Assembly (NCBI GenBank): GCA_027627225.1
Contig: CM051025.1
Coordinates: 52,574,181-52,638,180 of the forward strand
Direction of reading: 5' to 3'
DNA from: Congeria kusceri
Taxonomy: Eukaryota; Mollusca; Bivalvia; Myida; Dreissenidae
Length of the DNA: 64,000 bases
Under the pieces are notes generated by a model, which saw nothing but the letters and a program-made list of their open reading frames with translations, made no database searches and was not told where the DNA came from. Shown in pieces: positions 18,141 to 59,600 of this stretch (its first letter is position 1; each line of letters starts with the position of its first letter). The translations under genes and the position numbers were made by a program.

Positions 18141-19480
18141 TAATAATAATAGTAATAATAATAATAGTAATAATAGTATCATGGTATTACTGAAATAATA
18201 AACATGATAATATTAGTGCGTGTAATAATGTCAAGGTTATATTAATAATAGTAAGAGAGAAAACAAGTGGTTACTTTAGTATTTTCGTAAATGTATCAAT
18301 CTTAAATATTAATATTATTTTACATACCACAAAAGGTTGACATAAAATGTACAATCACGCTATACACAAAAGGTGGTATTTCTGGTATCCTATACATTTA
18401 CACTTCCTGTATGTTGTGAATACAATTTATCACTTCAAAAATGCCAATAGATGGATCCGTACACGAAATATGTATAAATAATGTTATATAAAATTATTTT
18501 GCAATTACGTTGAAATGTCTTCTCATTTATCAAATACGTGTGCACTTATTTGCAAAATAAACTCAAGATTTAAAAAATATACATTTCATTCTCTTAAGTG
18601 CGATTTGAGTCTCAAAACAAAAAAAATATTTTTACGTAGCGTTAAATTAATCTCCACGTACGTTACTCTCCCATCAAATCGATTAAAGTTTGGGAGGGCA
18701 ACAGTTGGGGAACTAGTTTCGAGAGGTTTTTATTTTCGACTAGGAACATCTAGATATTGTTGATTATTGCTATACATACGACTATTTTAGATTTAACACA
18801 ATGAGATCGCAGCTCTATATTGCATATAATGCTCATGCGCGGACTCGAATGCATAACATCCACGAACTTGCAGGTGTAGGGGCTACTAACTTCCTAAGAA
18901 TGAACGGATGTTTCTACGTTATGATTTTCGTACAAAATCGTACAGTCCCTCTTTCATGTAACACAGACTATATAAACATACTGAAATATTATAACGAGTT
19001 TGCTATTTCTCAAAAAGTTATAGATGCGTTACTTCTAGACAGTCAATAGTGGCGAAAATTTGTGGTCCTGATGTTGATGCTGTGACTGCAGGGTAGCCAT
19101 TTGAAGTTATTATACAATGTCGCCATGACAATGATCCACTTTGTTGTTTAAACATTAGAAATTCGTTTATGAAATGTATAAGTGTTAGTTGCATTAAAAC
19201 CCTTTTAAATATTGCAGAGATAATAAGTAAAAAATACTGCTGGGCGACAACTTACCAGTTGATAATTGGTACATGTGTATACCTGAATAAGTACATGGCC
19301 AGTATTCACAACGCTGCTACGAAAAATCGTAACTTAGATGTGTATATATTTGGTTGGATATAAAATTAATGGAGATACATTTAGATAAAATACCTCGTGG
19401 TTTTGGACCGAATGATGTTGAAAATCAGGCAGGGCCCTGGAAACTACCAGCCTTGAAAAGAATGCAATTCGACCAATAAA
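18141..19480. other. Intergenic DNA, no gene supported
   Basis: Two ~82-codon ORFs (from 18515 and 18801) have no splice partners or domains that I recognise. AT-rich throughout. Confidence 0.35.
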
Positions 19481-29431: not shown

Positions 29432-32400
29432 ATGGAGGGTCTAGGTGAAGTTCTTGAGATGTTCAAGAACTGTTTTCCGTTGTCGTTTTTGTTTTTTGTA
29501 CCGATCTTCATCATAATCTCCCCAGTGTCACCGGTGACCGCGGCACATGATTTCGCCATCTACAGAATGCAGCAGTTTGACCACTATGAGACAAAGATCG
29601 GTAAGTTCGCGGGTGTTTTAACACATTTGTAAAGAACGACTTCACTTGATCATATTTATATTGAATAATCGCTGTATATATGCTGTGCGGTGAAAATTGA
29701 TTAAAGGCTACAGTACAAACCACCAACATTTTTTATTGCTAATTTACTATATTGCATAACACATACATAATTAATTATGCCCCCTATCCATACATGCCAT
29801 ACGTCCCGGTTTCACCGGGATTGTCCCGGTTTCATGAGGTCTGTCCCGGTGAGATGCATTTTGTCCCGGTCAATCACAAAAATCAGTGTTAGTGTACCAT
29901 AAAACTTACATTGGGCCAACAATTAAATTCAGATCGTTAATCCCTTTATCGGTCCCTATGACAACAATACCCGCTAGCCACATGTCAAAGAGGAGCAGTA
30001 ATGATACCCCATTCAGTGTTTTTCCTCTATATAAAGTCGATACCGGAAAACGGTACCATTCCCAATCCGATTTTCTGACCATTTTTCCCAATTTGAAGTT
30101 AAAAAATAACCAAATGTAAGAAAAAAATCCAAAAAGACCCTGAAAAGATCGACCATGTTCCTGTATTTTACCCAAAGTGGTGAGGAAAAACACTGCCATT
30201 AGCGATTTATTGATCATTTGTCACATGGGGGTCATATATCCGTGGTCGCTAATTGCTGCTGATTGTTGCATTGTTTCGGAATAAAAAAGGAACTGTGTTT
30301 GTTGTTATTTTGATTCTAAATAGAATAGGTGTTATCACATAATTAGTTTGGTAAGTATGAAAATATATTGAGAACTTTTCGAAAATTAAAGATGCAAAAA
30401 CAATCATTACTTTCTTTAAATTCATATTGTTCAAATCGCAAAATTTGATACAGTTAATGACGCAGTGTATAGTGGAACATAGCCCAGGCAAAAGTCTGCT
30501 GGAGTAGTCTCCCTTGTAAACGCATTTGTTTATTTGACAATCAGTGTTTATATTTGCGTGTTTTGTGTAATTTCTTTGATGTCATAATTAATACATGTTA
30601 TCATTTATATTATTGAATAAGTATGATTAAAATATATGCGTTTGTATGTTTGTGTTATTCATTTTGGGTGTTTATTGTTTGAACTATAACTATATAGACC
30701 ACGAAACGGAATAGGACCCAGGTTAGGTACGATAAACTATTATTATAACGCGTTTTTTTGTTCTGACAAAATGACAATATTAATGTGTCCCGGGCAAATG
30801 TCAAATGTCCCGGCGATTTTTTTGTGCATTGTCCCGTTTTGGCCTGAAAAAATTATGGCATGTATGCCCCTATCGAAGGTGGGGGGGGTATATTGATTTG
30901 CTAATGGCGGTCTGTCGTTGGTGGGTAGACCACTTTCATTTCCACTCTCAAAGTCCAACAGTCATCATGATCTGATCTTCACCATGAACATGTTTTTTGT
31001 GGGCATAATACAATGTTTTTGCTCAATTTAAAGTCGATACCGGAAAACGGTACCATTCCCAATCCGATTTTCTGACTATTTTTCCCCAATTTGAGATTAA
31101 CAAATTTCCAAATGTAAAAAAATACCCCAAAAAATTGAAAAGATCTACAATGTTCCTGTAATTTACTTTTGTTTTACCCAAGCGTAAACCTCAGCGCACA
31201 GCTAAAATCAGTTACTGTTAATGGCTAGTAGAGAAAACTGCTTGTTAATGGCTAGGGGAGTGACGGCTGCAAGGTTTGGTGGAGCTGTATCGATTTGTTA
31301 CTATTATCAGTTACACATTGCGAGTGAGAATGGGAACCAGCTGAACTTTAACGCGTTTTCGCAGTGTCACTTATGAGACATGGCAATTCATAACACCAGG
31401 GCCTTCCCCAGGCCGTTTTAGCTAACTTGAACATATCCGGAGTATAATGAAGAAATTTACAGATTTAAATAAATAAATAAAGAATTTAACAGCACTAATA
31501 ATTTTAATTTAGCTTTAAATTGTGATAAATACCTAAGCAAGCTATGCAACCAAGAGTTTGTAATCATATGTATGTCTCATTACTTATGAGTATGTGTATG
31601 TTTCTAAAAAGCATCACCAAATTTGACCAACTTCACCAAAATAAAATTGTGGGATCTACTGTCTACATGATTTAGTTTTAATGATGTGTTAATAAACATT
31701 GTGTAGTGCTTACACCACGTAGGTCGCGAAAATATGTGATAACTTGAAAAGAAATCTTAATCTCCTTATATTTAAATCCTTCCTTTAACTGACACATCCA
31801 CTTGTGTAAATAACAAAATATTTGCCCATAATTCATGTTAAATTTCATCATGATAGAGGAAAAACAAATCGTTTTTCTTTGTTATACCCATTTTATTAAA
31901 CAGCTATTAGAGTGTTCTTACCTTGTAAGCAATGTCAATGATAAAATTAGAGGATATCCATATGTAAAGCCAGTGTGAAAAAATCGGCTGTAATGTATTG
32001 AAAAATCATATTTTCACTTTCATTCTCGAAAACAAAGTACAGATTTTTTTACAATTGGGAATTTTTTGGTCAGAATTGGGAAAAATTATGCATATTTGGC
32101 ATTGGGAACGGGTCCGACTATCGGACCCGTGAGAGCAGTAGAAAAAGGCCTGCATGTACACCCACTCAATAAAGTAGCTGAATGATCAAAGCGCGTGTCA
32201 CTTCGCAAATTTTTTTAACAATTTACAGTTTTTCATAAGCCGCAATCAATCACCATGAAGCACCGCCTTGTAGGCGGAGTTTTATCTCGCAGTAAAATCA
32301 ATGTAAGTCAGTAGAAACGCTCTGTTTATCTTCGCTGCAGCATGATGTTATGATCGACCAATTGGCGCAATAGGCATGTATCCCCACACAAGTAACCTTA

Positions 32401-35400
32401 TACGCGCTTCCATGCGTAGTATCGACCGTAAAAAGATTGCTCAACCTTTTTGTATTTTATAATGTCCTCACTAATTTATGTGATGAATATAATAACTTCA
32501 AAAAATAAACTGCGACAGATAAGTCAGAAATACGCTAATATGAAATCGTAATCAGAAAAGCCTATCCAGTGCTGCTGTTCGTTGTAGTTTTGTATTACAC
32601 AAACTGTATTGTTTATGTACATGTATGCCATGTAAAACCCATCGTTTCTACAAAAGAAAGCGAAATGTCTGCTGACACGACGTCACGTTCCACGCATGGA
32701 AAGCGTGCGTGTACCGACCATGTGATTTACTAAATACAGGTCTTTTAACATTTGACGCGCGTAAGCACGACTTGCACGAGGGAATTTTCCAGCATTCTAT
32801 GCAAGAACAAAGCATGTATATTATACATGTATTTTAATCAAGATGTTTACAAATCACCAATTATCAGTACTACGTTCACCAGTTGTAACGATTAAAACAT
32901 TGTTAAAACATTAAACACATGCCCATGTGAACATAATTAATAAAAAACAGAGGCTCCGTAAGTAGATGGAGAATAACCTAAAAATTCGAAAACCCCGAGA
33001 ATTGTGGATTTGACCATGACGTCACTGTGCGAATGTGATGCGCTGGACATGAACATCCGGAACAAAATTGTTACTTTCAGTTTCGCAACAACAATGACAC
33101 GTTTGCTTTTAAAAGTCTAGAGGTATACCGTTTACAAAGATGATGTTTCATTTATTTCATTTAGTTTAAACCTTTACACACAATTTAAAACGTGTTAGCC
33201 CTAAATGTAAGAGCTAAAACGCACCGGATAACGTCATTTGACACATACCGCAAAAATTCAATGTAACCACCCCTAACGGGACCGGGGCGCCTGAAAAAAA
33301 CCCTGGCGAAGGCACTGATAACACTAAATACTACCAAAAAAAAATTCAGGGATGCAATCCTTTATCTAGCTATGGCTTTTATGGCAAAGCAGAAAGTATA
33401 GATCCACAACCGTCATTAATTGCGGAAGATACTAGTAATTTTGTTTATGTTCTGTCAACCATTGACACAGACATTGTCAGTGTGGAGTCCAAGAGCAAAC
33501 TTTTATCTCTGGGGCAAGGTGTGCAGGTTGATACCCACCAGCATGGCATTAAAAACCATAGTCTGGCTTGAATGCAAGTTCAAGAATAAATGGAACAAAT
33601 AATTTTAGGGTTTATTTATTGTAACTTACTGTGTTACATCCTTTTCGGCAGTTTTTAATGAAAGTGGTAAAATTCCCAATTTGGCTGAAAATGCATCATA
33701 TTTTCCAAATTTGACTGGTACCTGTACCATTCCCAAAGTGGTGAGAAGAAACGCTGTAATATCTAGGCCATGTTCAATAATCATCCAAATTGTCCCAAGA
33801 ATTGTAGAGTTATGGCCCTTAAATTAACGAAAAATGGCCTTTTTAGCCGTTTCCGCTTGCTGAATTACCAGTAGCCTTTTAAACATTTCCACTCTTTAAG
33901 TCCCAACAAAAAGGGGGTATAATTGTTTTAAAAACAGCTCTTGTTATTTCTTGAACTGCTAGTCATGACAAAAAGGAATTCAACACATACAATTTTGTCA
34001 TTATAGCTCTAATACTTTAACCTGACTCTGATTTTTATGCATGAATATATTACAGATTAGTTATGTTATTGGTAGGGATGGCAACGAATGTTGGAATAAT
34101 GGAAACTATTCGAATTATATTTTTGTTTTTGAATAATGACCTGTTTATTAATTTAATTTTAATACGCATCTTAAATACAGTATTTGTCAACATCATTCTA
34201 TAAAGATATTGCGTTTTCGTGTCACCTTTGCATGTCTAGTACACATGATATCTGTTAAAATCTACCTATCACCCTATTGTTACGTAGACGACAGTTTGTT
34301 GTTAGTGCTAGTCCCATTGTATCGACCACGGTCTCTTGTCAGTTCACAAGTTCACTTATAAATACATGAAGTAGGAGATTAAAGCGCGTTTTAGGGGCTA
34401 ACTGCTATTGTTGCGAACATGTGCTCTGAAACAGCATGTCACATTCCTAGTTATGTCGTGGAAAGTGACAGCGAAGTGGTCAGCAAAGATTTGCATGTGC
34501 TAAATACATGGTTTGAAGTCTTTCCCATTAAATGAAATGGCAAAATCACAAACTAGTTCAAATATATAGATTAAAGTCAGTGTATTGCCGCATATTTCTC
34601 ATCATGTGTTGGTGGTGGCTATAAACCACATAATCACAAGTCATATTCATTTAGTAATACCTCTCTATCTGACGATCAAATATTTGAATACTTCATCAAT
34701 CGAATATTTGAATATTATTTTTGGTATTCGTTGCCATCCCTAGTTATTAGTTTCCATAGTTCATACTGGAAACATGTTAAAGCAATGAAAGAGTGTCCCA
34801 CTGAAAATACAGTTATTGTATAAATAAACGTGTAATATGTGCACGGACATAACCAAGCATAAACATAGGAAACCATTTGAGAGCATCATTTATGCTAACA
34901 GATTTCACAAGTGTCGGGCCAATGTGTCCAAGTTATACTTAAGCAAAAATCTTATGTATATTCATTATTATGTTTAAATACTCATTGAGTCACTCACTTT
35001 ACTAATTTTGATTAATTTTATAAAGACAAAATATCAATTTTATAAGTTAATTAATTATTAATGCTAAACAAAGGCAGCAAAATGTCCTTAATCAACATGG
35101 AAGCGAGACCCTTGGATGCCAAAACGGTGACAAGAAGATGCATCCTGACACGCTTGAAAGAGATGACTGGGTCCAAATACAGAGAGCTGGTTGAACAAAA
35201 GGCAGGAGCGCTTCTGGTCCTACTGCCACAAGACCTGGCAAGCATGCCGGAAAACCTGAAACAGGTAAATTGCATGCTTGTAAGACAGATTTTTTTTACA
35301 CGCAGAAACATTCTGTCAGAGTAAATGTATATATATTTGCTCAGTATGAATGTTCCATATTTAATTACAGTTCCATATCCAACTAATACAGTGAATATCA

Positions 35401-38400
35401 AGCCCTGCATACTTGGTTATTCTTAGTGTTGTTAATCAGTGTCCAAAATTTTAGTCGATTAATCAGCAACAAGATCTGACTAAATAGCTGATTAATCAGG
35501 ATTCTTGAAAGTAAAGGAAATGCACTCTAGACTGCAACGTTTCAATGATTTACATTGTTTTATTCAGTTTCGCAAAAAATATGTGTCTGATTTATATAAT
35601 GCAATTATGAAGGAAATAGGCATAAAACATGCTTTTTGTAAAAACAGTTTGTAAAACTGCATTATCCTATTAACGCGCTGGACTATTGACAAGATAGTTG
35701 AAGATACATATCAGATATATTAATTATTTAAAATTTAAGCAACCACACAAACACTACATTTTTTTTCGTGTGTTGGGTACAGAAATGCAAAATTTATCAC
35801 AAAATTTACAACAAACATGGGTTACAAAAAAGCTAAACAAATGAATACAAAGACCATAATTGCATTATTTTTATTTTTACATTTTATAACCTGTGTTTAA
35901 ACCTTTCACAAAAGTAAGATCTCCATCTTTAACAATACTGAGTGGAGCCAACATGGACTACTGTGTTTGTAATCTTAATCGACTAGTTAATCATTGACCT
36001 ATTAGTCGTTGATTAATCGACAAAATGATTAATCGGCACAACACTAGTTAATCTTCAGTTTAACCTAAACAATATCTGTATACTCTTCTAATGTTTAATA
36101 TTTAATGAATTTTACAATTTGTCAGCTTCAGGGGGTGTGTGGGGAGGGGGGGGGAATCACATTGTTTTTGATGAAAAGGGGAAAATTTTACAACTCAAAA
36201 TTTAAGTCAGATTCAATACCTGTCTATACTTTCCCATTTACTGACATCACAGTTGTCACCCTTGTTACAAGAAATTAAAATAAAGCGCAAATCTAGAGGC
36301 ATTAACAACTTTTCAAATAGTTCTGGACATGATGCTCGATAATCTGTTATCATAGTTTGTTTTTCCCTATTTCTCCAGGAGAATTTTTTTTGTCAAAAAT
36401 AGAGGGAAAATAAATAATTTGTCAGTAGTGAATGGGGCCAAATATTGGCCCCAAAATGGTTATAAAAAACTAGTCTGCCAAGTGCCTGCAGTTGTTCCCT
36501 GTGTTTGTTCCCAGCACCTGCAGACACTGGAGCAGGAGCTGTTGCAGGCCGAGGATGCCAGCGTGCCCGTGTACTTCACCTGGGAGTCAGACACCATCCT
36601 CCAGATCTACAACTCTGTCACAGCCAGCTCCGGAGATGATGCGGCTACTGCTGTGGAAGGTAGATATACAATTCATGTTTTGTTTTGTTAACAAAATTTT
36701 TCTTCGAAAAAATTGTGGTTATTAGATTGGATTATTTCGTTGGGCGGGCCAACTTTTCGTTTCCGCTCAATAACTTGAGAACGCATAGAGATATTTTAAT
36801 GAAACTACATACATAGATACCTTATATCGAGGCCTCGCTTGGGACCGCATATGGGGTGTGTGGGTTCAAGGTCACTGTTACTAAAAATAGAAAAATGGTT
36901 TCTGCGCAATTTTTAGCTTAAAAATGCATGGGGAGATATTTTAATGAAACTTACATTGAGACCTTGCTTGGGATTGGATATGGGGTGGGTGGGGTCAGGT
37001 TCTAGGTCACCATTATTAAAAATATAAAAATGGTTTACGCTCAATAAATTGAGAACACTTCGAGATATTTTGATGAAACTTCATATGTAGATACCTCATA
37101 TTGAGACCCTGCTTAGGATTGCATATGAGGAGTGTGGGGTCTAGGTCACCATTACTAAAAATACACAAACAGTTTCTGCTCAATACCTAGAGAACAAATA
37201 GCGATATTTTAATGGAACTTTATATGTAGATATAGATGGGACCGAATACTCGAATATTCGAATATTGGATAATATTCGAATATAAAAAAACTAATACGAA
37301 TATTCGATGTCCTCATTTATTTAAAGAACAAAATTTCTTTAAAAAATCAAGTTTTTTTCCCAGTTTGATTGCAAAGTTAACATGAATTCCAGTCGTATTT
37401 CCTGCCTAGCAGGTGGGCGGGGGCAGTGTAACGTTTTCACAACACATGCTAAACATGTCCAATTAACGACAATTGATAATTGGCAGGGGGGCCACGTCTT
37501 TACAAGGGCCACGCATTAACGGTTTTTAGGAGGCGCGAATATGACGCATTGTATCCACAAATAACAAAACTGGGCCATGTTGTGATAACGGTTTCACAGT
37601 TTGCACAAGGCGTACATTGTTGTTTATTATCCTTAAGTGACATCTATACAGTTAACTTGTTTACAGTAAATTACAATAACTGTCTAAGTAAACCAATAAA
37701 AATGAATCCATTATCAGCCAATCAATTTCTTAAACAAAATTAGCATGATCTGGTAAATTTTACTATATGTTACTTGTAAATTATTCTCCATTATATCAAC
37801 ACCGTATATTATACAAGAGTCTTTATTATTAAACAATGCCACCATCATGTGCTTGGAAGTACTTTATGCGGTCATTAGATACAAGCTTCATGGTTCTGAA
37901 GAAAAAAAACGGAACGATTAACAAATTCATTAACAATACATTTAAATATATCTTACATTTCATTATATTTGCGTAACACTCACAAAGTTATTATCGCTCA
38001 TTTACCACTGAAACAAGGTAAAACAACTAGGTACACGTAGTATACATATTTCGGATAGGTAAATATTCAGACAGGGTGCCGTATATAGTAGTATTTACTA
38101 AACAAATATATATTCGAATACCTAAAACGAATATTCGAATATTGATTTCAGTATTCGGTCCCATCCCTAGTAGATACCTTATATCTAGACCTTGCTTGCA
38201 ATTGCATATGGGGTGGATGGGGTCAAGGTCACCATTACTGAAAAATAAAAAAAAGGTTTCCAATCAATAACTTGAGAATGAATTTAGATATTTTAATGAA
38301 ACTTCGTATGTAGATACCTTATATTGAGACCTCGGTTTGGATTGCAAGGTCCATTTCCTAACCATAGCTATATGACTTTCACCTTGCACCTAGAACTTTC

Positions 38401-41400
38401 TTTCATTATTGTGCTGACTGTTATGCATTTTGTTCGAAAAATTTGGTTTTCGTTAAATGTCCAAGTTCTCATTGTCAGTTTTCATGCACATGTTATTCCC
38501 TATCAAAATCATATTCAAAATCATTTATTTCCAATTGAAACTTAAGTCAAGTTCCAATTACCATATGCACATATCTGATCTTCAATTTTTGTCAGTGATT
38601 GTTATTTTTTTCATTCTTAAGAATTCATTTAAAATAATGTAATGCTTAGTATGAATCTGACAAATTAGTATAAAGTCATCAGATAGTAGTATCCATGGTT
38701 GAACTGTTTGTTTTGCAGCATTGTTGAGCTCTGCCTCTGCCAACGGTTACCAGATGGTACAGAGCGGCAGTGTGGCCAAGGCCCTGACTGACTTCCAGAT
38801 AACCAACATCCAGGGACACCTCGCTGGCTACGGCATAGAGGAGCAGCTGCCTACCATCGCCTTAGTTACGCACTATGATGCATTTGGGGTAGCACCAGTG
38901 AGTGGAACATTGCAGAATTAATCGTTAGCAAAATTTTGACAAAAATACTACAGAACACAAGTGCTGTAACCAGCTTTTTGTTTACATTTTCTAAGAATGT
39001 TGATAGTTTGGCCTGTTTCAGTAAAGAACTTTAAATTACTAATGGTGAGTTTTATTTATTAGCTTAGAAAGTTTCATATAACTCAAAAATTGCATTCCAT
39101 GTGAGAGTAAAATTAGCATTTAGGTAATTTAGCTCACTAATTCCTATGATTATGTGTAATCATTTGATTAGTAATTTAAATTAATTTGATTTCTATAAAG
39201 ATTACTTTTATATATCATATACAAATCAATACATACGTATATTTTCAGAGCCTATCAACGGGTGCAGATTCCAATGGTAGCGGTGTGGTGGCCCTGTTGG
39301 AACTGGCAAGGATCTTCTCCAAGCTCTACACCAACTCACGAACACACGCAAAATATCCTTGCAGCTGATAATATATCTGCTATGAATCATCAATGAAATG
39401 GGATTTGTTTTTGCATCATTCTTGGTGTTGTAAGCTGCCAAGTGCTGAATAAAGATCAACAAGAAAGATCACATCTTGTTTAGAATAATTCTTTTAGAAT
39501 TACTGTCTTGCTACGTAATATTTGTTATGGTTTTGTACCACCAGTTGAATTTTTTGAACTCAGCGTATGAAAACATGGTATGATGTAATTATTAGCAGAA
39601 AAATGTTTGATGGCAGTTATTTAGTGGGAACAGTGTTTTTTTTTCACCTTAAGGGGAAAGGTGGCGGGGCCCTTCAGATGGGGAATTTTACGGCAAAAGG
39701 GGAATTTTTTTTTCTTCAGAAAAGCATTATTAGATGTTTATATTCTACTTTGTTATAAAACATTCATCAATTGCTTTGCTACAAATGGCTGCTTAGATTA
39801 TGCACTTACTTGGTTTTATGAAAAATTGCTGGGATTGTTACGAAAATGCCTCTATCTTATTCATTTTTTGTCCGATTTTGGTATTTTTTTTTCAAATTAA
39901 AGGTTACTTTCTGAGGGGAATTTTAATGCAAATATAGGGGAAAAATGTATACTTTTTTAGCAGTGGAATGGGGCCAAAATCCGGCCCCAAATTGGCCCCC
40001 CCAAAAACACTGAGTAGGAAGTCTAGCCTGTTTTCTGGAAGATATCCTTGACCGTGTGAAGGTACAACCTGGTGTTCCTGTTGTCTGGGGCTGGAAAATT
40101 CAACTACATAGGCTCGAAGAAGTGGATTGAAGATTCATTGGAAAATGCTGGTAAAATGCTTGCTAATTTTCAGTAAAATAACTGGAACATTTTACCATTT
40201 AGAGTTTATTCCTTTTTGAGATGGCTTCTATAAAGACAATTATTTAACATGTTTAACACTGTCCTGCTTATATAGCTTTTTATGCCCCCACTTTAGAGGT
40301 GGGGGAGGGGGCATATAGATATGCTGTTGTCCGTCGGTCCGTCCGTCCATCCGTCCATCGGATTCTTGTGTTGCGCATAACTTAGAAAGTATGACTGCTA
40401 GAGTGATGAAAGTTTATAAGCATATTCACCGGCATTGGGGCTTGTCCAACTGTGTATTTTGGTGCAGTTTTTTTCCGATATCAGCCGAGTTATGGCCCTT
40501 TTTTAGCAAAAAATGATATTTTTGGACTTGTGTGGTGCGTAACTCAAAAAGTATTGCTGCTAGAGTGATGAAACTTTACAAACATATTAATCAGCATGTG
40601 AACTTGTGCACCTGGGTATTTCGGTGCAGTTTTTTCCGACATTGGCTGTGTTATGGCCCTTTTTATAGCCCAAATTTTTTTTACTTGTTTTTCGCGCATA
40701 ACCAAAAAAGCATTACTGCAGGAATGATGAAACTTTATATACATATTAATCAACATGTGAACTTGTGCACCTGGGTATTTTGGTGCAGTTTTTTTCTGAC
40801 ATCAGCGGAGTTATGGCCCTTTTTAGCAAAAAATGACATTTTTGTACTTGTGTCGTGTGTAACTCAAAAAGTATTAATGCTAGAGTTTTCAAACTTTATG
40901 AACATATTAACCAGCATGTGAACCTGTGCACCTGGGTATTTTGGTGCAGTTTTTCCGACATTAGCGGAGTTATAGCCCTTTTTTTAGCAAAAAATGACAT
41001 TTTTGGACTTCTGTCACGTGTAACTCAAAGTATTATTGCTATAGTGATGGAACTTTATAAACATATAAACATGTGAACTTGTGCACCTGGGTACTTTTGT
41101 GCTGTTTTTTCCGCCATCAGTGGAGTTTATGACATTTTTGGATTTGTGTCGCGTGTAACTCGAAAAGTATAACTGTCTAGTTTCCCACTGTTTTGATATG
41201 TTCAAGCTGTAAAACATTGTGTTAACTTATAATTTCTCCGTTATGAAGGTTATGTTATTGCTGGCGACTGTTTCTTTGTTGTTAGTTAGCCACTTTATGC
41301 AGAAAAGAACGAATTTTCATTAATATTTTTGGGGTTTCGGTAGAATATTGATTTTAATTCACGAGTGATCATAGAAATTTATATTTTCACAAGTGGCAAT

Positions 41401-44400
41401 ATAAATGTTTTATGATCACAGGTGACTCAAAAATCGATATTCTACCGAAACCTTCTGTTTATTTTATGCATTTTACACCATTTTGTCACATTTTGTGTGC
41501 TATCTACATGCATTAAATTTGAAAAAAAGTCGGGAATTTTAACGTCATGACATCACAATTTTGAGTCCGATATTGTTGATGGTCCGTTTCATTTACTGTA
41601 TTAAATCGGGAACCAGTGTGAAACAGTGAAATTTACCGGAGTGATAAACTAAAAACGTCTAGAAATGCTTCAACCGTAATGCTGTTTTCTGTTTGTAACA
41701 CCTTACGGTCATAAACGGAGCGTCCTCTATTATCGACCCATCTATAAAGCAGTAGACCGTCGTTATGAAATAAACACGGCACGGCACTGCGGGATGTAGG
41801 GTCCGACTACAAATGTGCGAGTTAAACAATGGGCCCGTCGTCTACCAAAAACCGAAGTCGTAAAATGCGGTCCACGCTTTTTGCATGGAGATCTTTACTA
41901 GTCTATCTGAAAGATGATAGCAACGCAAATACAGCGTTACTGCATAGGCAGATAAATCGGATATGTCAAGTGTCAATAAGGTACACAGTATATTACACCG
42001 GAGCCTCGTTTGGAGTGTATGCACATTAGATAAGGGCTACTTATCTTACAGAAAATAAACTGGATATTAAACTGATTCATTTATGATATAAATGCACATG
42101 ATGTTTCACATAATGTAATTATAAACAAACTCTTATACTTCTTTTAACTACTATAAACATTGTCTTCATGTAGGTATACATACTAGAAAACTACATCTTA
42201 GAGCGCAAATTCGGCCGAAAAAAAAGCTAGCCGAATAATTATTCTTTGGAAATTTAAATTCGTGGATAGTTCCAGCCTCGAAATCCACGAAAATTAGTGC
42301 CCCACGATAATTAATGGTTTTGCATTATATAATGCATATAAACTGCAGCGAACAACAATTTGATGTCATCCGGCAATGTCGCTCGCTTAATTTAAAGTCT
42401 TTCAGACTTTGTCATTTAGAGGTTTGATTGTTTATATTTCTGTAGATTTTGTTCGGTATAATAAAATAAATATTTAATTCCTTGAGGGTGACAGTGCGTC
42501 TCGTCAACCCATGACAAACACTGTCGACCTCGACTAAAGCCTCGGTCGACAGTGTTGCATTGGGTTGACAAGACGCACTGTCACCCTCAAGGAAGTCATT
42601 ATTTATATACTGTTTCAAACAGTGAATTACCAATTTTATTTCACTGATATTTCCCTATAAATCCTTGGAAAGCATAAACTAAATGATTAGATTTTGGTGA
42701 TGATCCAGGTGAGCATCTTTATCCAGGAATTATTTACAGTTTCTTTATTATCGGTAGATAAGGCAGGTTGTCGTATTTCACTTGATTACTCATTAGTGGC
42801 ACGACACATGAAGAAATTACTGTCTTGGCAAAGGTCTGCACTCAAGTGCTTTCTAGCAGTAGTAATGTTTTGTTGTTACAGACAGCTCCCTGTTATCGGA
42901 TATCTCCTACGTTCTCTGCCTGGACACTATCGGTCGTGACAATAGTCTGAGGCTGCACGTCTCCAAACCACCAAAGGAGGAAAGCCCAGCCTGGGAATTC
43001 GTGCAGGTATGTACTAGTAGTCAAGGCAGTGAATTGTGTGTTTCCATCAAATACAAACAAACTACTGATACATTTATATATAATTTTGAAATAATACTGC
43101 TTGTGTATGGTGACAGAAAAACTGCAGAAACAATAAAATTTTGCTAAACATTTAGGCCAGTGTGTTTAGTAAAAGCTTTTCAAAGCTCATAAAAGTATCA
43201 AATTAATAGACTGTTTTATCCAATAATTGCGCTCGGATATCACCTTGTTTAGCTGTTTACCTAGTCCACACAAAGGAGCACATCATGGTACAGCTTGGGA
43301 AGTGCTTGCCAAAGCAATGAATGGCATTTTATTCTTGAACGTACTCCTCTTGGAGGAGTTTACAAAATTAGTGGCAAAAACTGACAAGGTCTGTTGTCTA
43401 TGTTTTCAGCATCTTGAGAAGGTAATACAGACGTTCTATCCAGAGGTGACCGTCAGCATGGTGCATAAGAAGATCAACCTCGCTGACGAGATACTGGCCT
43501 GGGAACACGAGAGATTCAGCATGAAACGACTGCCTGCCTTCACTCTGTCCCACCTGGAAACACACAAGTCCATGGAGAGGATCACCATCCTCGATACCAG
43601 GTGAGCTGATAGAAGAAATACGCAGTGTAGGGAACTCAGTAACATCCTCGATACCAGGTGAGCTGATAGAAGAAATAGGCAGTGTAGGGAACTCAGTAAC
43701 ATCCTCGATACCAGGTGAGCTGATAGAAGAAATAGGCAGTGTAGGGAATTCAGTAACATCCTCGATACCAGGTGAGCTGGCAGAAAAAATAGGCAGTGTA
43801 GGGAATTCAGTAACATCCTCGATACCAGGTGAGCTGATGGAAGAAATAGGCAGTGTAGGGAACTCAATAACATCCTCGATACCAGGTGAGCTCGTAGAAG
43901 AAATAGGCAGTGTAGGGAACTCAGTAACATCCTCGATACCAGGTCAGCTGGTAGAAGAAATAGGCAGTGTAGGGAACTCAGTAACATCCTCGATCCAGGT
44001 GAGCTGGTAGAAGAAATAGGCAGTGTAGGGAACTCAGTAACATCCTCGATACCAGGTGAGCTGGTAGAAGAAATAGGCAGTGTAGAGAACTCAGTAACAT
44101 CCTCGATACCAGGTAAACTGGTATTAGAAATAGGCAGTGTAGGGAACTCAGTAACATCCTCGATACCAGGTGAGCTGGTAGAAGAAATAGGCAGTGTAGA
44201 GAACTCAGTAACATCCTCGATACCAGGTCAACTGGTATTAGAAATAGGCAGTGTAGGGAACTCAGTAACATCCTCGATACCAGGTAAACTGGTATTAGAA
44301 ATAGGCAGTGTAGAGAACTCAGTAACATCCTCGATACCAGGTGAGCTGGTAGAAGAAGTAGGCAGTGTAAGTAACTCAGTACCATCCTTGATACCAGGTG

Positions 44401-47400
44401 AGCTGGTAGAAGAAATAGGCAGTGTAGGGAACTCAGTACCATCCTTGATACCAGGTGAGCTGGTAGAAGAAATAGGCAGTGTAGGGAACTCAGTAACATC
44501 CTCAATACCAGGTAAACTGGTATTAGAAATAGGCAGTGTAGGGAACTCAGTAACATCCTCGATACCAGGTGATCTGGTAGAAGAAATAGGCAGTGTAGGG
44601 AACTCAGTACCATCCTTGATACCAGGTGAGCTGGTAGAAGAAATAGGCAGTGTAGGGAACTCAGTAACATCCTCGATACCAGGTAAGCTGGTAGAAGAAA
44701 TAGGCAGTGTAGAGAACTCAGTAACATCCTCGATACCAGGTCAGCTGGTAGAAAAAATAGGCAGTGTAGAGAGCTCAGTACCATCCTTGATACCAGGTGA
44801 GCTGGTAGTAGAAATAGGCAGTGTAGAGAACTCAGTAACATCCTCGATACCAGGTGAGCTGGTAGAAGAAATAGGCAGTGTAGGGAACTCAGTACCATCC
44901 TTGATACCAGGTGAGCTGGTAGAAGAAATAGGCAGTGTAGGGAACTCAGTAACATCCTCGATACCAGGTGAGCTGGTAGAAGAAATAGGCAGTGTAGGGA
45001 ACTCAGTATCATCCTCGATACCAGGTGAGCTGGTAGAAGAAATAGGCAGTGTAGGGAACTCAGTATCATCCTCGATACCAGGTAAGGTGGTAGAAGAAAT
45101 CGACATTGTAGGTATTTCTGCACCTACTCTGTACCGTCCTCGATACCAGGTAAGGTGGTAGAAGAAATCGACATTGTAGGTATTTCTGCACCAACTCTGT
45201 ACCGTCCTCGATACCAGGTGAGCTGGCAGGTAGTAGAAATAGGCATTGTAACTAACTCTGAACCAACCTTGATACCAGGTGAGCTTGTAATAGAAATAGG
45301 CAATGTAGGTAACTCTGTACCATTCTCGTTGCCAGGTGAGCTGGTAATAAAAATAGGCAGTGCGTAATTTAGGTAACTGTGTACCATCCTCGATTCGAGG
45401 TGAGCTGGTAGTAGAAATAAGCAGTGTGTAATGTAGGTAAATCTGTACTATACTCAAAACCAGGTGAAATGAAATGTCCGTCAGTTACTCTAGAAAGAAG
45501 CAATGTGTAAAGTAGATTATTCGAATAAACTTCCTTACTCAGTACTAGGTGAGTTGGAACTTGGAAGCTATGGGAACAAGTTATGGTAGAAATAAGTGAT
45601 GTGTAATGTAACTCTATATGAACTTTGCTAAGAAGTTTCAGGTTTGTTTTGGTTACTCACAAACAGTAATAAAACCATTAATCTAGGAAAGTGTATGTTA
45701 TTGTAGTCATTAACCAAGTTTGTCCATGCATCAAGGAATTTTGTTTTGAGTGATATTCAAGAAGTTAAAAAATGTACATTGTGTGGAGGCAGTTTTTCTT
45801 ATTATTATCGAACATATGATTGTAATAAATCTGCACATATAGACTTAGTTTTTGTTTATTCAACTGAAATGTAAAAATGTAAGCTTAAACCATCCTGATT
45901 GTTAAAAACTCTCTCATTTCAGGACCAATGTCGATGAAGCTGTTTTAGTTCGAAACATTCGCATCATCGCAGAAAGTCTCGCAAGACATGTGTATAATCT
46001 TACAACTCAGGGAAATGTTCAGCTATTCTCAGATACTCTAGTAAGTGTCTGATTATTTCATGTATTTGTTTATTGCTATCATTAATATTTGAATGGAAAC
46101 TAACAAATGCTTGAATTTATGCACAGTATATTGTATACTTTAAATGGTCATTTATTTCCCTACACATCAGTTATACTAGTTGTAATTTTGTCCCCTAAAG
46201 TGGGCATACTGGTAATAAAATCAAACCGTCTTTCCGTCCATTCGTTAGTTCGTCTGGCCAAGATTAGTTTTTTTATAAAGTCCAATACTATCAAAGGTAT
46301 TTACTTGAAGCTATTAACGTCTCCACTAGGAAAAGCATCCCCATCATTCTGTTGTCGCTTTTGACAGAAGAGCATACAGGGGCATATGTCTCAACATAGT
46401 CCCTGCACTTGTTTATTATTGTATGAATGAGGCGCGTCGTGGGAAAACCGGTCTTAATGCATGTGCGTTAAGTGTTGTCTCGGATTAGCCTGTGCAGTCC
46501 GCACAGGCTAATCCAGGACGGCACTTTCTCCCTACAGTGAATATATCAAGAGACTTCCTTGAAACAGAAAATACCATAAAAGCGGAAAGTGCCGTCCTGG
46601 ATTAGCCTGTGCGGACTGCAAAGGCTAATCCGGGACGACACTTTACGCACATGCATTAAGTCCGGTTTTCCCACGACGTGCCTCAAATATGACAACCTTT
46701 TCTATTGGCCTGAAGATTAAGACTCATTTTGTGAATGTTTGAATTCATGTCGCCCGAGCAATAAAGTAGCTATTGTACCAACTGTTACCAGGATGTTCAA
46801 CAAGAGCTGGTATCGGCCTGGCTAGACCACCTGACCTCCCAGCCACGTGCAGCTCAGCTCGTGCCCCGGGACGCCAGTCTTCTGACAACGCTCGAAGATA
46901 TGATGTCCAGATATCTCAAGGATGTTAAACGAACCACTGTGAAAACAGACAAGAGGTGGGTTCTAGCTGGTAGTAAGATATTTACAACAGTGTTTTGGAA
47001 AGTGTTAATAAATAATGAAATCCTTTTTTTTTTTCTGTCCAAAGATTATATAATTTGTGTTTTCGTCTAACTAGTAACTATTATTATGTGCTTCATTTTG
47101 TTATATTCTTAGTCATAGATGAATAAACATATACAAAAGGAATGAAGTTATGAACCAAATGTTGTTTACCAGTTCCTCTTCTGCGGGATTTGTAATTTAT
47201 GTTTTATTGTTTATAATAAATAAATAAGTTTGAATTATACTCGATAACATAATTATGTTGTGAGAATTCATTTAACGAAGTGAAATAAACTTTGTTCCGT
47301 TAAATGAGAATAATACTCTGAGATGGTACATGTTTTAGTTAAACAAGTTCGTCATTTACCTTTTATCAATTTCAGAGATCCAGAATTCTTGTTCTATGAT

Positions 47401-47881
47401 GGTGCAGAGTACATGATGAATGCATTCAACGTAAAACCAGCAGTCTTTGATCTGTTCCTTGCTGTTGCTATTGGAGGGTACCTTGCAGCTATATACTTCC
47501 TTGTCCAGGTAATGCCACTATTATGGCAGTCATGATTCTTTTACATCTGTTTTATGAATTTTTTTTCTTCCAGATGTATTTTGTTATGCTATTTAAATGG
47601 ATTTTGCTTTACATATGGAGGTCATTCATATGGAGGTCATTCACGTTGATATTTTTATTTAACAATCTGACATGTGGATTCTTAAAAAGACAAATAGCAC
47701 GAAGTTCCATTGTTTATTGACTTTGTTGAATCAATAATGGAATTCATATATAATGATGTTTATGAATGTTTAAAACCTAACATTTTCACACTGTTGATGT
47801 TTTCAGAATTTCCACATTCTGCTGGGCTTGTTCATCAAGTTTACACATCCAAGTTCAGCAAAAACCACCAAAGTGAAGTAG
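29432..47881 (+). CDS. NCLN: Nicalin (BOS/translocon complex subunit), 12 exons, 560 aa
   Basis: Exons: 29432-29600, 35074-35264, 36515-36659, 38719-38897, 39249-39352, 40062-40150, 42882-43006, 43410-43600, 45923-46040, 46792-46955, 47376-47508, 47807-47881. All junctions keep phase, and the total (1683 nt) is close to human nicalin (563 aa). ATG lies in GCCATGG context. Residues ~14-35 are a hydrophobic signal/leader. [54 protein letters not shown] and [14 protein letters not shown] are recognisable nicalin landmarks. The middle is an M28 aminopeptidase-like fold that in this family lacks a working zinc site. Residues ~515-550 form the C-terminal membrane anchor. In vertebrates nicalin works with NOMO and TMEM147 in the ER membrane in multipass protein biogenesis and Nodal modulation. 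The intron between exons 5 and 6 is U12-type. The donor of exon 8 heads a minisatellite. Confidence 0.95.
29789..30866. mobile_element. Non-autonomous DNA element with perfect 8-bp TSD
   Basis: The ends CATACATGCCATA and TATGGCATGTATG are inverse complements, flanked by CCCCTATC at 29781-29788 and 30867-30874. Next to both ends are repeated GTCCCGG motifs. There is no intact long ORF. It sits in NCLN intron 1. The 8-bp duplication suggests a hAT-like or similar cut-and-paste family. Confidence 0.75.
31397..33317. mobile_element. Probable hAT-like non-autonomous element, ~1.9 kb
   Basis: The left end CAGGGCCTTCCCCAGGCCG and the right end's reverse complement CAGTGCCTTCGCCAGGGTTT match imperfectly. 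ATAACAC flanks both sides (31390-31396 and 33318-33324). There is no transposase ORF. It lies in NCLN intron 1. Confidence 0.6.
34073..34742. mobile_element. hAT-like MITE, 670 bp, 8-bp TSD
   Basis: The left end TAGGGATGGCAACGAATG and right end GTATTCGTTGCCATCCCTA are inverse complements. The flanks GTTATTGG and GTTATTAG form an 8-bp target duplication with one difference. The internal ends are rich in GAATATT/AATATTC motifs, and there is no ORF. Confidence 0.8.
35424..36046. mobile_element. hAT-like element, 623 bp, 8-bp TSD (NCLN intron 2)
   Basis: The left end TAGTGTTGTTAATCAGTG and right end TAATCGGCACAACACTA pair imperfectly. The subterminal region repeats GTCGATTAATCA in both orientations. 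The flanks GTTATTCT and GTTAATCT differ at one position. Confidence 0.65.
36047..36514. other. NCLN intron 2 remainder
   Basis: It contains GGGGAA/GGCCCC-type sequence (for example GAATGGGGCCAAATATTGGC near 36430) related to the element at 39631-40012. It probably holds an older relative of that element, ending about 50 bp before exon 3. Confidence 0.4.
36690..38448. mobile_element. Second copy of the tandem-core TIR element, split by a nested MITE
   Basis: The left end is near AACAAAATTTTTCTTCGAA and the right end is TTCGAAAAATTTGGTT, as in 1174-2122. The internal tandem units share AGATATTTTAATGAAAC and GCATATGGGGTG blocks. The element is interrupted at 37234-38169. It lies in NCLN intron 3. 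Confidence 0.7.
37234..38169. mobile_element. Nested hAT-like MITE, ~936 bp, 8-bp TSD
   Basis: The left end ATGGGACCGAATACTCGAAT and right end GTATTCGGTCCCATCCCTA are inverse complements. The flanks GTAGATAT (37226-37233) and GTAGATAC (38170-38177) are a target duplication. GAATATTCGAATATT repeats are at both ends. Its terminus resembles 34073-34742 (GGGATGG), so they are likely relatives. Confidence 0.8.
39353..40061 (+). promoter_or_regulatory. NCLN: U12-type (minor spliceosome) AT-AG intron of NCLN
   Basis: The donor is ATATCCTT exactly at the exon 5 boundary, the consensus U12 5' splice site. No GT donor is usable there. The acceptor side has the U12 branch motif CCTTGAC (40046-40052) with its A at 40051, ten bases from the terminal AG, and there is no long polypyrimidine tract. 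Only this junction restores the conserved reading [20 protein letters not shown] across exons 5 and 6. A hAT-like insertion accounts for over half of the intron. Confidence 0.9.
39631..40012. mobile_element. hAT-like MITE, 382 bp, inside the U12 intron
   Basis: The left end CAGTGTTTTTTTTTCACC and the right end's complement CAGTGTTTTTGGGGGGG match over the outer ~10 bases. The flanks AGTGGGAA (39623-39630) and AGTAGGAA (40013-40020) form an 8-bp TSD. The right end lies about 34 bases from the branch motif. Confidence 0.75.
40280..41217. repeat. Diverged ~145-155 bp tandem repeat, about five copies (NCLN intron 6)
   Basis: It starts with TTATGCCCCCACTTTAGAGG and a run of GTCC repeats. Units then repeat GTGCACCTGGGTATTTTGGT, GAGTTATGGCCCTTTTT, AGCAAAAAATGACATTTTTG and AACTCAAAAAGTATT. 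Overlapping long ORFs on both strands come from the periodicity. Confidence 0.75.
41333..41453. repeat. Inverted repeat with ~50-bp arms
   Basis: GGTTTCGGTAGAATATTGAT at the left pairs with ATCGATATTCTACCGAAACC at the right. Pairing continues through GTGATCATAGAAATTTATAT versus ATAAATGTTTTATGATCAC. The loop is short. It lies in NCLN intron 6. Confidence 0.75.
41454..42477. other. NCLN: NCLN intron 6, unassigned
   Basis: No exon fits the nicalin alignment here. The ~66-codon ORF at 41829-42029 is uninformative. Confidence 0.4.
42478..42595. repeat. Near-perfect palindrome, ~52-bp arms (NCLN intron 6)
   Basis: The left arm begins TTCCTTGAGGGTGACAGTGC and the right arm ends GCACTGTCACCCTCAAGGAA. 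The inner part GACAAACACTGTCGACC pairs with GGTCGACAGTGTTGCA. The loop is about 14 bases. High arm identity suggests a recent or selected foldback. Confidence 0.8.
43584..45560 (+). repeat. NCLN: 57-bp minisatellite carrying the NCLN exon 8 splice donor, ~33 copies
   Basis: The unit is ATCCTCGATACCAG (the last 14 bases of exon 8), then GTGAGCTGGTAGAAGAAATA (the donor and intron start), then GGCAGTGTAGGGAACTCAGT plus AAC. Donor-like GT positions run 43601, 43658, 43715, 43772 and so on at 57-bp steps to 45082, with one 56-bp step near 43999. They continue with irregular spacing (45150, 45218, 45279, 45336, 45400, 45464) in a decayed tail. GT is kept in every copy I read. Variants include GTAAAC, GTCAGC, GTCAAC and GTGATC. 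Confidence 0.92.
46428..46685 (+). mobile_element. Foldback element, copy 8 (full length, NCLN intron 9)
   Basis: The first hairpin is perfect around GCCTGTGCAGTCCGCACAGG and the second is around GCCTGTGCGGACTGCAAAGG. It lies about 105 bp before exon 10. Confidence 0.88.
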
Positions 47882-52700: not shown

Positions 52701-55700
52701 CTAAATTATTAAAAAATACAATGAAATATTCATGAATTAATTAGAAACTGCATGTGATAATTGGAATTTAGGTTTTATGTTATTGTGACTATGATTTTGA
52801 AATGAGCCTTACACATTTAATTTCAGGACAATTTGCTTGTTTTGTGTTTTGTTTTGTTTTCAAAATCTATCTAGTCGCATTGTTTTTCAGATCTCTTTAT
52901 GGATCCATCATTGCTAAGTATTCTAGCCCATCCAGGCAATATCAGAAGGTGAGTAAATAAGCAACAAGCTTAGAGAGGAATATAATTCTAAATATGTGTC
53001 CATACCGGGAGGTACTATGGACTCCATAGATGTTAGTTGTACATGAATATTCATTGAGATTATACATGTTTGGATTTGTGTGTCTAGTGCTGTTAAAAAA
53101 TTCATACAATAGCCTGGTAATGTCCATACATACATTTTGAAACAAATTTCAATGCATAATGGAATTTAAATACTGGTGCTAATTTCTAAGGACAACAGCC
53201 CACAATCAAATGTATATGTGTTGTGACTTCATTCGCCATGAAATATGGAAATGACTGTTGGTCATTAAATACAATATGCCTTGTGTAAGCATAAATTATG
53301 ATAAAAACGATATACATCAGTATTATACTGATATTGGAACTGAAAACATAATTATTCAGCTCAGAGCTGTTTCAGGTCTTCGTGTATCTCAAAGGCTATG
53401 GAGCTAATATTGGAATTGAAAACCTAATTATACAGGTCAGAGCTGTTTTTACAAAGGGTCTTCATGTTTGCCACAGGTTATTAGAATCTAAGTCATGCTT
53501 TATGAATTGTGAGTGTGGTAGAGCGATACAGTGTACTAGCACTGGAGTCAACTCAATATAGATACAGTGTTCTCATGTTAGAGTTGACAACATCAACTAT
53601 TCAGCAGTGTCTTCTTTTTTACTACAGGTTACTGGAATCTCACCCATGCTTTGTGAGTGTGGCAGAGCTGATCTCAGAGCAAGTGAAGGAGGCGGGCAGG
53701 ACGGGAAACTTCACGACCTCCTCGACCCACTCTTACTCCTTGGACCACATGTCGGATGATGAGGAGGAGACCCCTGCAGCGGTATGTGGTTGTCATGGAA
53801 ACTGTCAGTGCATTGATTTATATTATTGTAACATCTAGCTGGATTTCAGACAGACATATACAAACATAGCCATTGTTTATTCTAAACCGCTCATGATTTA
53901 CATTTGTATTACAAATATAACAGGCAGTAACCCATTTCCATACATAGACCTGTGTGTTCATATTTCCTATCAATGTTTGAAAATATACCATCTTGTGTGT
54001 TTGTCTTTAGGTAATTTCACAACATTTAATTAATCTTGCTAATACTGATCCTGCTTTATATGATGGAATAGACATAACTTCCTTAACAAGTAAATTTTTT
54101 CCATTTTCCTCGATGAATCCACTGAATAACATTAGAAGGTAGTAAACACCAGTATGCCATACTTTCATTGCATTTGCACACTTAACATGCTTTTTAAATG
54201 TTCCAGAGTGGAAGCACAGCGATCACAGCCAACCAGCTTGCGGCAGCTCTAGCTACTGCCACTGGTGCTAGCCCCTCGTCTTCAACACAGGTGTGTTAGT
54301 AACATTCAGCCCTCATTATAACACAAAAAGAGTTTGTTTAGAATATTGTAATATAACATTTGAATTGTCCATATTCTGCACATTCCAGTAGTAACTTAAT
54401 GGCAGATGGGCAATAACAATTTAATATAGACTGTCACGATAATACTTGGTCAGTATTAAGTTTAATATAGACTGTCACGATAACACTTGGTCAGTATTAA
54501 GTTTAATATAGACTGTCACGATAACACTTGGTCAGTATTAAGTTTAATATAGACTGTCACGATAACACTTGGTCAGTATTAAGTTTAATATAGACTGTCA
54601 CGATAACACTTGGTCAGTATTAAGTTCAGACCATATATATGTAGGACTTATTTATGCCTATCAATAAAGCTTAAAATTTCACCTTTTAGACCATGTATGC
54701 TGGACCTGATTACATTTCTGTTCAGTGAAATAGGAGAAAAACAACATTTTATTGACTAAAAATGTATGTGGTTGTACATATACATATGTTATGTGTGTTA
54801 GACGATTCTGCTGTTGAAATCGATCGTCTTTTTTAACAGTCAAGTTAGATGAAATACCTGTTTGTACATGACCCATGTCTCTTACAGGGTCAGCCTATTA
54901 CCCATGACTTTTTCCAGCAGGCCATCTTACAGGCCCAGTCATCTACCATGGCAGTAAGTAGATGTGAATTGTATGCAAACATTTAAACTAAAATTGCGGT
55001 TTTTGTGTCGCCTTAAAGGCGACTATAGGGGTTACTTTTGGTGGCGGCGGTGGCGGCATCCCTTTCAGTTTGCGCAGACAATAACTTGGGAAGTTTTTGT
55101 GCTATTATTTTGAAACTTTACGGAAGTCTTAGTGGGCATTAAAGGAAGGTTAAGTTAGATTTTCGGCATAATTGCTCTTATCGTACTTCAGTTATGCCCC
55201 TTAAAAAAAATCATTCAAATAAGGCTTATGCAGACAATAACTTGAAAAGTGCAAGTGTAGGCATAATTGCTATTATCGTACTTGAGTTATTCCCCCTTTT
55301 TTGTTGAAATCGTTCAGATAAAGCTTGTACAGACAATAACTTGAAGTTTTTGTTCAATCTTTATGAAACATCATGGAAGTGTTAGTAGGCATAAAACTAA
55401 GCTCAAATTTGGTTATTGGCATAATTACTCAAATCGTGCTTGAGTTATGCCCCGTCAGGCGACACAGTGGACTTGCGGAGTTCTAGTTAAATATAGGTCA
55501 CAAAAAATTTATTTTGGTAAATTGATATATTTCCATCAAATAAGATTTGTTAAATCTTGTGTGTTTTAATTTTATGATATTTAAAGCTTTAAAAAACATA
55601 AACCTGAAATGTAGTACTGGTAGTAGTTCATTTTACTTGGCTGTCATATTCATATTCATTTTATAAGGTTGTAAATGTTTCTTAATAATTCACTTGCTGA

Positions 55701-56615: not shown

Positions 56616-59600
56616 TCATGGCCAGTGCGAAGTGTTGTTGCATAGTAATTCAGTCACACTGCTTGTCAGATATATTGTCTCTTCATATGACAACATGTGT
56701 TTAAGCAGAACAGCAGATTCCTTCTGAAGGTCACGGAGGTCGGACGGCGGGTCCATGCCAATGAACAATACAATCACCTCAACTGCTCCGCGGAATGCGA
56801 GCCTCCTTATTTCTTGTCTCAAGTTTCGGTAATGCTTCGTGGCGCTATCTATGAAAATAACAGCTATTTTTCTCTGGTTAATAGTGTCTTTAATACCAGT
56901 TTTTAAAACGTTGAGGCGTAATTCTTTTATTAGTTCTGGAAGATTTTCTTCATCAGTAGCGTCTGTTAATCTAGCTATTCTTTCGGCGCTTGCGTACGAG
57001 GACAGTGGAATACTCTTTAATGAACTGCATACGTGACGTAGTATTCCGGATCTGACGTGTGAGAAACCCGATGACGTAGCGTGTATGGCGTCAGTAACAG
57101 CCGACAACAGCACGCTTGCTTTCTCCGGGCCCATGGACGATTCATCGTACACGTACATCACATCGGCTGGCAGAGTGTTTTCACATGGTAATCCTGAATA
57201 GATATAAGTTTAATAGTGTTAAAGAAAAAACGGTTGCATTAAAATCACTCTTGAATTTATACCGTGTGGTGCATCAGCGAATGATTATTATAATATTATT
57301 AGATTGGAGATAAATATTACAAAATCATTACCCGAGATTGGATTGCGTTTCAACTTTCTGTTGGCCTACAGTGACTGTTATAAAATTCAGCATTTGTGAA
57401 TATCTGGCTTGGTCTGAGTTTTATGACAATGGTCTGCAACCCGGTTTACCAGGGATATTATAATAACTATGTAGTTCATAAATACTGTACTTGAACTTGT
57501 AACGATGTTTTGATCAGCGATGTACCCGTCAATGGCATCATTTGCAACATCGTGTACCCTGCATGCGTTAGTTGCTAGAACTTCTTGCAGCGTTGGCAGA
57601 GTTCTGAAGTCCTGTCTAAAAAACACATTGCCAGCGGAAGGCTCGCTGCCTATGAAGTATAGTTCCTGTTTGTCGACCTTATGACCGATGCCGATTGCTA
57701 CAATACGAATTCCCGCTTCCTGAAGCAGACGAGATTCCACAAGCGTCAACTTCCGGTCTTCCGACTGCCCATCTGTCAACAAAACTATCACGTGCTCAGA
57801 TGTAGTCTCGTTTTGATTCTTGACAAAGCCTTCTTTTCGAACATACTGAAGAGCACTTCCGGTTTTCGTTCTCCCGCCATAATGGTTGATCGTTAGAATG
57901 CGGTCGATAAGTTCAACTTCGGTGAAATTGTTTGTTAATGGAATTACTGGATGAATGCCATCGCTATATGCAACAATCCCAAATCGAACAATTGTGAAGG
58001 TACCAGATTTTTTCAGCGATTGGACGTTCTCAGCTACACACTGTAACATGCTGTCATAGTTGTTCGAAGAAATGCTACTAGAGGAATCCAACAGGAAGAT
58101 CACGTCCGCAGTCCTTGGATAGCAATCTAAAAGGTTTTGAGAAACTAGCAATCAAAAATAGCTGCGCACTTGTGGACATTTTTTAGTATGTGAGCAAAAT
58201 GTATGTACCGCCGAATGTATTATGTTGGATGTATACGGCCTATAGCAACATCAAGAAATGGCTTAGTATAACTGGTAACATTTTAAACACTAGTACGTAG
58301 CACTTAACTCAGAAACTTGGTGCGCCCTCAATAATGGCGCTGAACACTAATTAATACGCAGACATATTGCATGAGATTGACCATATCTTACCAGTGTACT
58401 CGAGGCTGTCCGTGACCGGGCCAGCAGTGGAAGGTACGCGATGCCCTGACTTGGCTTCCATAACTGGAAAAATTGGAATGGAGCTGTGAAAGAGCCATCA
58501 GAAATGTACAAACAAAGCGCGAAATGTTCTCAATGAATATATTAATACAAACGCGTTTACACGAACACGAATTCACTAACCTTCACACGTGGTCTGTACG
58601 AGTAAACGTTCGATATCCTTCAACAGCAGAAAATCGTCAACAGAAAACACGTACTTATCGGCGTCTATATACGGAAACGTTTGTACACGCCCGATCTCTT
58701 GAACGCGGCCACTAGACACCATTCCTCGATCACTCGCTATCTGTTGCAGCTCCGATATGTCCACCCCGTAGCCTACCCCTATGGTCAGTAACAGGATACC
58801 CCGACTCTTGGAAATGGACGCCTCCATTATGGTATTCGCTCTGTTCGAAGAATAACCATCCGTCACTACTATGTTTAATTTGGGGACACGTTTTCGTTCG
58901 TTTTCGTCCGCTAACAAAATGGACTCTCTCGAAAACTTCAAGGCAGCAGCTGTGTTGGTCCCTCCTTTGCTGTACGGAATATTTCCAATTGCTGCAATTA
59001 GACTGCGCTTGTCCTCGTAATCCACCAGTCCGATCCGCGGGTAGACCTGCGAGCCAAACGTGAGCACCGCCACTCGCACGGCGTCCCGGGTCACCGGAAG
59101 TTGGGAGACCACGTGCTGCACGAACGTCAGCTGTCGTTGGAAGTCCTCCGGGTGTATGCTAAATGATGTATCTAGTGCAAACACGATGTCGGCTGAACGG
59201 CTGCCGCAATCGCCTGAAGACCAGATGTAATTAAGTCTCTCGAAAGATTTTGTGCGATATAGACTTTTGTGGCGATACAAAGTTTAATGATATATGTAGG
59301 AAGAGAATGTCACCATATCTAAGTGTTAAAGGCATAATAAATAATCATTGTATATGCACAAGTAAACCTAGTACGCAGTATATTGTTACAAATTGTAGTG
59401 TATGACAGCCAAATCTGCATGCTAAATTTAGCACTATATTTTTTTTCCATTTTTTTAATGCGAGTAATATTAATGAGAAAAATTAGATCAGGCGTTTTAA
59501 GCTACTATTTTGTACAACAAAATGCTTCATACCATTCGAGCTGGTCGTGGAAAATGCACACTGTAAATCAGGAAAGAAATATCTTAAGCGTAAACAAAAC

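Follow-up and report, generated by a model that had tools for sequence, protein, structure and literature searches.

A splice-donor minisatellite at the exon 8 boundary of a mussel nicalin gene, probably a passenger of tandem duplication

The 64-kb stretch of DNA analysed here (the window) contains an intact nicalin gene (NCLN) on its plus strand, encoding a subunit of an endoplasmic reticulum membrane complex. The gene has an unusual exon boundary: exon 8 ends inside the first unit of a 57-bp tandem array, in register with the repeat, and the array carries copies of the exon 8 splice donor along intron 8. We think it probable, from the sequence, that this array is a passenger minisatellite born by duplication across the exon 8 boundary, and that it would cost the gene slight unproductive splicing. 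Any array that begins across a donor necessarily copies it, and therefore no special cause is needed to explain the copies. The NCLN array offers a clean natural test in which the spliceosome chooses one of more than 20 equal donors at 57-nt steps, and with it a layout described in two human genes gains a probable mollusc example.

Features of the NCLN gene, the 57-bp array and the rest of the window.
Feature	Position	Strand	Details
NCLN coding region	29432..47881	+	12 exons; 536 codons (exons 1-11) plus 24 codons (exon 12)
NCLN exon 8	43410..43600	+	191 nt; phase 2 end ...ACC AG/GTGAGC; exon joining and nicalin match over the exon 8-9 junction
NCLN exon 9	45923..46040	+	118 nt, not divisible by 3; its acceptor lies beyond the array; exon joining
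NCLN exon 12	47807-47881	+	24 codons, then stop
57-bp tandem array, intron 8	43586..45427	+	TRF, 31.8 copies
Unit 1	43586..43642	+	final 15 bases of exon 8, then the first 42 bases of the intron; GT of the genuine donor at 43601
Distal diverged units 27-34	45067..45560	+	spacing 57-85 bp, AG/GT kept
Minisatellite, 145-bp unit	1259-2060		TRF
Minisatellite, 50-bp unit	6721-7175		TRF
Minisatellite, 46-bp unit	11756-12932		TRF
Minisatellite, 161-bp unit, NCLN intron 6	40365-41127		TRF
Minisatellite, 41-bp unit, 99% homogeneous	54420-54626		TRF
726-codon open frame, copper amine oxidase domain	21931-24108	+	E 3.7e-87
Open frame, von Willebrand factor A domain	57387-58151	-	E 2.1e-34
Open frame, von Willebrand factor A domain	58576-59283	-	E 2e-35

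Exon joining and protein matches bear out an earlier note on this DNA, which had named the gene as nicalin and the exon as exon 8; it is the eighth coding exon. Exons 1-11 (29432-47508) join into 536 codons with no stop. Solved nicalin chains match these 536 residues from end to end (E 4.9e-182), and the top of 2,099 hits is 'nicalin-like [Dreissena polymorpha]' at 94% identity. The DNA probably comes from a dreissenid mussel of another species than D. polymorpha. The modelled acceptor of intron 8 occupies positions 45921-45922, beyond the 57-bp array, and the length of exon 9 means that skipping it would shift the frame. Intron 5 (39353-40061) has ATATCCTT at its start, AG at its end and TCCTTGAC just upstream of its acceptor; by these motifs it resembles the AT-AG introns of the minor (U12-type) class.

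TRF describes the array with a period of 57, 90% matches and a score of 2652, the highest of 38 rows in the window; eroded remnants reach about 45560. We anchored units on AGGT sites, choosing 34 unit donors (43601 to 45549, unit 1 included) from the 42 such sites in 43501-45620 and excluding eight that fall inside units. All 34 units carry AG/GT, as the earlier note had said of GT, although this is partly so by construction because of the anchoring. Its figure of about 33 copies compares with the TRF count and our 34 anchored units. It was right about the register and about the donor inside the unit, but the unit takes in 15 exon bases (43586-43600) rather than 14. The proposed ladder of 57-bp (19-codon) steps is real over units 1-27, where 25 spacings are 57 bp and one is 56 bp, so that no unit lacking AGGT was skipped there. 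The codon register, however, is lost from unit 8 on because that unit has a 1-base deletion, and the spacings of units 27-34 are 68, 68, 61, 57, 64, 64 and 85 bp. The note's picture of an array homogeneous near the exon and decaying with distance is roughly correct: units 1-9 differ from the consensus at 1-3 positions, units 10-22 at 1-5 and units 23-26 at just 1 each, and clear decay starts at unit 27. Among units 1-26, 36 of 57 columns are invariant, and three sets of units are identical (9 and 11; 16, 19 and 24; 25 and 26). A search for extra copies of the unit elsewhere in the window returned merely 10-base matches (E = 5.0).

What would follow if the spliceosome used the wrong donor? We extended exon 8 to every one of the 33 downstream donors in turn and joined each product to exons 9-11; an AGG TGA stop appears at the original boundary in every case. 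The earlier note had predicted this stop for the first units, and it extends to all of them. The repeat contributes nothing special to the outcome, as the donor itself, in this phase, supplies the TGA. In the donor 2 product, 53 nt separate the stop from the new junction downstream of it, and further junctions follow. By the usual rules, mRNAs made from downstream donors would be substrates of nonsense-mediated decay.

We estimated donor strength with a U1 pairing model that uses the 5' end of U1 and duplex energies, with a cut-off of -9 kcal/mol. In this model the genuine exon 8 donor, at -11.1 kcal/mol, is the best of 10 GT donors in NCLN (-5.3 to -11.1), and 22 of the 33 downstream donors are at -11.1 kcal/mol or better, equal to or stronger than the genuine one. 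Unit donors at -9 kcal/mol or better number 26 of 34, and the other eight are weakened. A quiet passenger therefore needs some means of favouring donor 1. Greater accessibility of donor 1 gained no support: its unpaired fraction of 0.24 is nothing distinctive within the ranges of the other 33 unit donors (0.20-0.55) and of nine other NCLN donors (0.18-0.67). We also rejected a stable RNA structure over the exon end, units 1-4 and the start of unit 5 (43560-43830; z = +2.71, with all 200 shuffles folding at least as well). An array-encoded protein was rejected as well: when 7,995 candidates were scored, none matched the open frame at 43890-45158 at E <= 0.001. Rfam gave no matches at gathering score in 38000-47000.

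Are the copied donors kept for a function? In units 1-26, we compared the nine donor columns (-3 to +6) with the other 48 and with 20,000 random nine-column sets. The mean number of changed units per column is 1.33 in the donor columns versus 0.96 in the others, and 75% of random sets are as conserved or more (P = 0.75), in a test that is weak because the units share history. Likewise, conservation is higher than in the donor window in 39 of the 57 contiguous windows of nine columns. Positions +3 (changed in 7 of 26 units) and +5 (5 of 26) are among the most variable columns. Against this, seven of the nine donor columns are invariant, compared with 29 of the other 48; the CAGGT core never varies, and equally invariant five-column windows make up eight of 57, CAGGT included. 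The 15 exon columns average 0.47 changes, a contrast given here as a plain mean. Within the reach of this test we found no extra conservation of donor columns in units 1-26, and the idea that the donor ladder is kept for a function gains no support from these figures. The donor copies look like passengers rather than a device; a device reading finds no support in the sequence and would be argued by analogy.

The exon appears to have come first. The exon part of the unit encodes ILDT(R), a string present in eight of the 13 relatives that were aligned (nine bivalve records with names, from seven species, and four without; several are gene predictions), and none of the 13 has an insertion at the exon 8-9 junction; the exon is therefore the source of the array and not its product. 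Viral contigs were scanned for the relatives' DNA: two stretches matched a pattern, neither was confirmed, and a second scan gave none. The six TRF arrays that measure some 200 bp or more make up 8.2% of the window, and when these were placed at random 20,000 times, leaving out a 516-bp repeat at 16-18 kb, an array started in an NCLN exon and ended in the next intron in 9.6% of placements; some array edge fell 20 nt or less from an NCLN exon edge in 15.7%. The omitted repeat (16158-18189) is a tandem run of four copies of an approximately 516-bp unit. Over the best 300 nt its first three copies are 99-100% alike; TRF, limited to 500 bp, missed it.

The history that we propose would begin with tandem duplication of a 57-bp segment lying over the exon 8/intron 8 boundary of NCLN. 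Minisatellite turnover (slippage, unequal exchange, conversion) would then have spread the unit along intron 8 with the donor as passenger. Exon 8 would normally be defined at donor 1, the sole donor preceded by a true exon. A minor fraction of transcripts may use the next donors, read AGG TGA and be lost to nonsense-mediated decay, making the array mildly costly noise and not a device. We favour this reading because the exon end falls in the repeat register, the array derives from the exon, donor columns are no better conserved than the rest of the unit, random placement gives such a position in 9.6% of trials, a stop follows from 33/33 downstream donors and ABCA7 provides a precedent. Against it stand the 22 of 33 downstream donors that equal or exceed donor 1 in U1 pairing, the seven of nine donor columns that are invariant, and the 0.47 changes in the exon columns.

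Could the array nevertheless do something for the gene? It might act as a copy-number dial, in which the number of donors or the length of the array determines what fraction of NCLN transcripts is wasted on unproductive splicing, through downstream donors or exon 9 skipping, and allele length tunes nicalin output. The universal stop and the frameshift expected from skipping exon 9 fit such a dial, as does the increase in skipping of the next exon with VNTR length in ABCA7 (PMC5954066). The same paper, however, describes one-unit retention as unchanged by VNTR length, and the donor columns show no extra conservation; we regard the dial as unlikely. That array length is a heritable dial on nicalin in this mussel lineage, working by AGG TGA donors or frameshifting exon 9 skipping, is an argument from analogy and seems to us less likely again. 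The splicing buffer of the earlier note, in which spare donors rescue the gene when donor 1 is damaged, proved weak when positions +1 to +6 of donor 1 were changed singly, in all 18 ways, with donor 2 in use. Eight of these changes open a frame that has 19 extra residues and reads through to the end of exon 11, but 10 keep the stop, none yields the normal protein and none opens a frame via donor 3; we consider this function very improbable.

Equally improbable is a U1 sponge, whose donor copies would gather U1 snRNP on the pre-mRNA and perhaps guard against premature polyadenylation or titrate U1. Intron 8 is certainly rich in sites at -9 kcal/mol or better, with 27 in 2,322 nt versus 13 in nine other introns totalling 14,147 nt (intron 11 not counted), but one intron of one gene would hardly matter against cellular U1, and the donor columns show no sign of selection. 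We give least credit to a recursive-splicing ladder that would use each AG/GT as an acceptor and afterwards as a donor. The donor side of this fusion is strong in U1 pairing; the acceptor side is weak in a small profile trained on nine acceptors. Nine of 34 unit AG sites do exceed the 95th percentile set by 438 intronic AGs in that profile, but 33 of 34 fall below all nine genuine acceptors, the same ones that trained it, and pyrimidine content upstream of the unit AGs is mostly 0.50. Assemblies are error-prone over long tandem arrays, so the structure could be real and the unit number wrong. The many distinct variants among units and the intact gene sequence on both flanks speak against such an artefact, which we rate as improbable as the sponge. 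The passenger reading is the one we carry into the comparison with known systems.

The layout is already described in two human genes, ABCA7 and IFI6, and we use 'splice-donor minisatellite' as an informal name for this ABCA7/IFI6 type, a class defined by layout and not by descent. NCLN shares its two features: the genuine exon donor lies inside the first repeat unit, and further units hold donor-like sites (34/34 with AG/GT; 26/34 at -9 kcal/mol or better). A literature search found no mollusc case of a minisatellite at an intron splice site. Like NCLN, IFI6 has a minisatellite at an exon end that offers several splice donors, but use of its downstream donors reportedly makes short in-frame additions, whereas all downstream donors of NCLN give a stop. 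The IFI6 (6-16, G1P3) minisatellite was described by Turri et al. (1995) as providing several donors; according to a paper that cites them, two downstream units are used and three mRNAs result (PMC4526556). A related process is intron gain by tandem genomic duplication, in which AGGT copies become the donor and acceptor of a new intron (PMC3443670). There too, tandem copying of an AGGT-bearing segment multiplies splice signals, but NCLN copies the edge of an existing intron and its copies are weak as acceptors: no copied AGGT serves the modelled intron 8, whose acceptor lies outside the array, and 33 of 34 unit AGs rank below nine genuine acceptors.

ABCA7 is the closer parallel. The VNTR of human ABCA7 intron 18 has a 25-bp unit, opens with the two bases of the exon 18 donor and ranges from 12 to about 427 units in people, with a link to disease (PMC5954066). 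Retention of one unit causes a frameshift and a stop, and transcripts with premature stops increase with cycloheximide and are subject to decay (PMC5954066). The two frameshifting isoforms are put at 14 +/- 6 and 2 +/- 1% 'respectively', neither affected by VNTR size (PMC5954066); we take the 2 +/- 1% isoform to be the one-unit retention, a minor product. Both genes thus have an exon-flanking tandem array with the genuine donor in its first unit, and in both the retention of one unit leads to a premature stop. They differ in that the ABCA7 unit begins at GT and its retention is out of frame, whereas the NCLN unit of 57 bp includes 15 exon bases and its stop comes from the donor itself; the NCLN case is known from one DNA sequence. 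In the human layout, array length is known to alter splicing of the next exon, as shown for ABCA7, where exon 19 skipping increases with VNTR length (PMC5954066).
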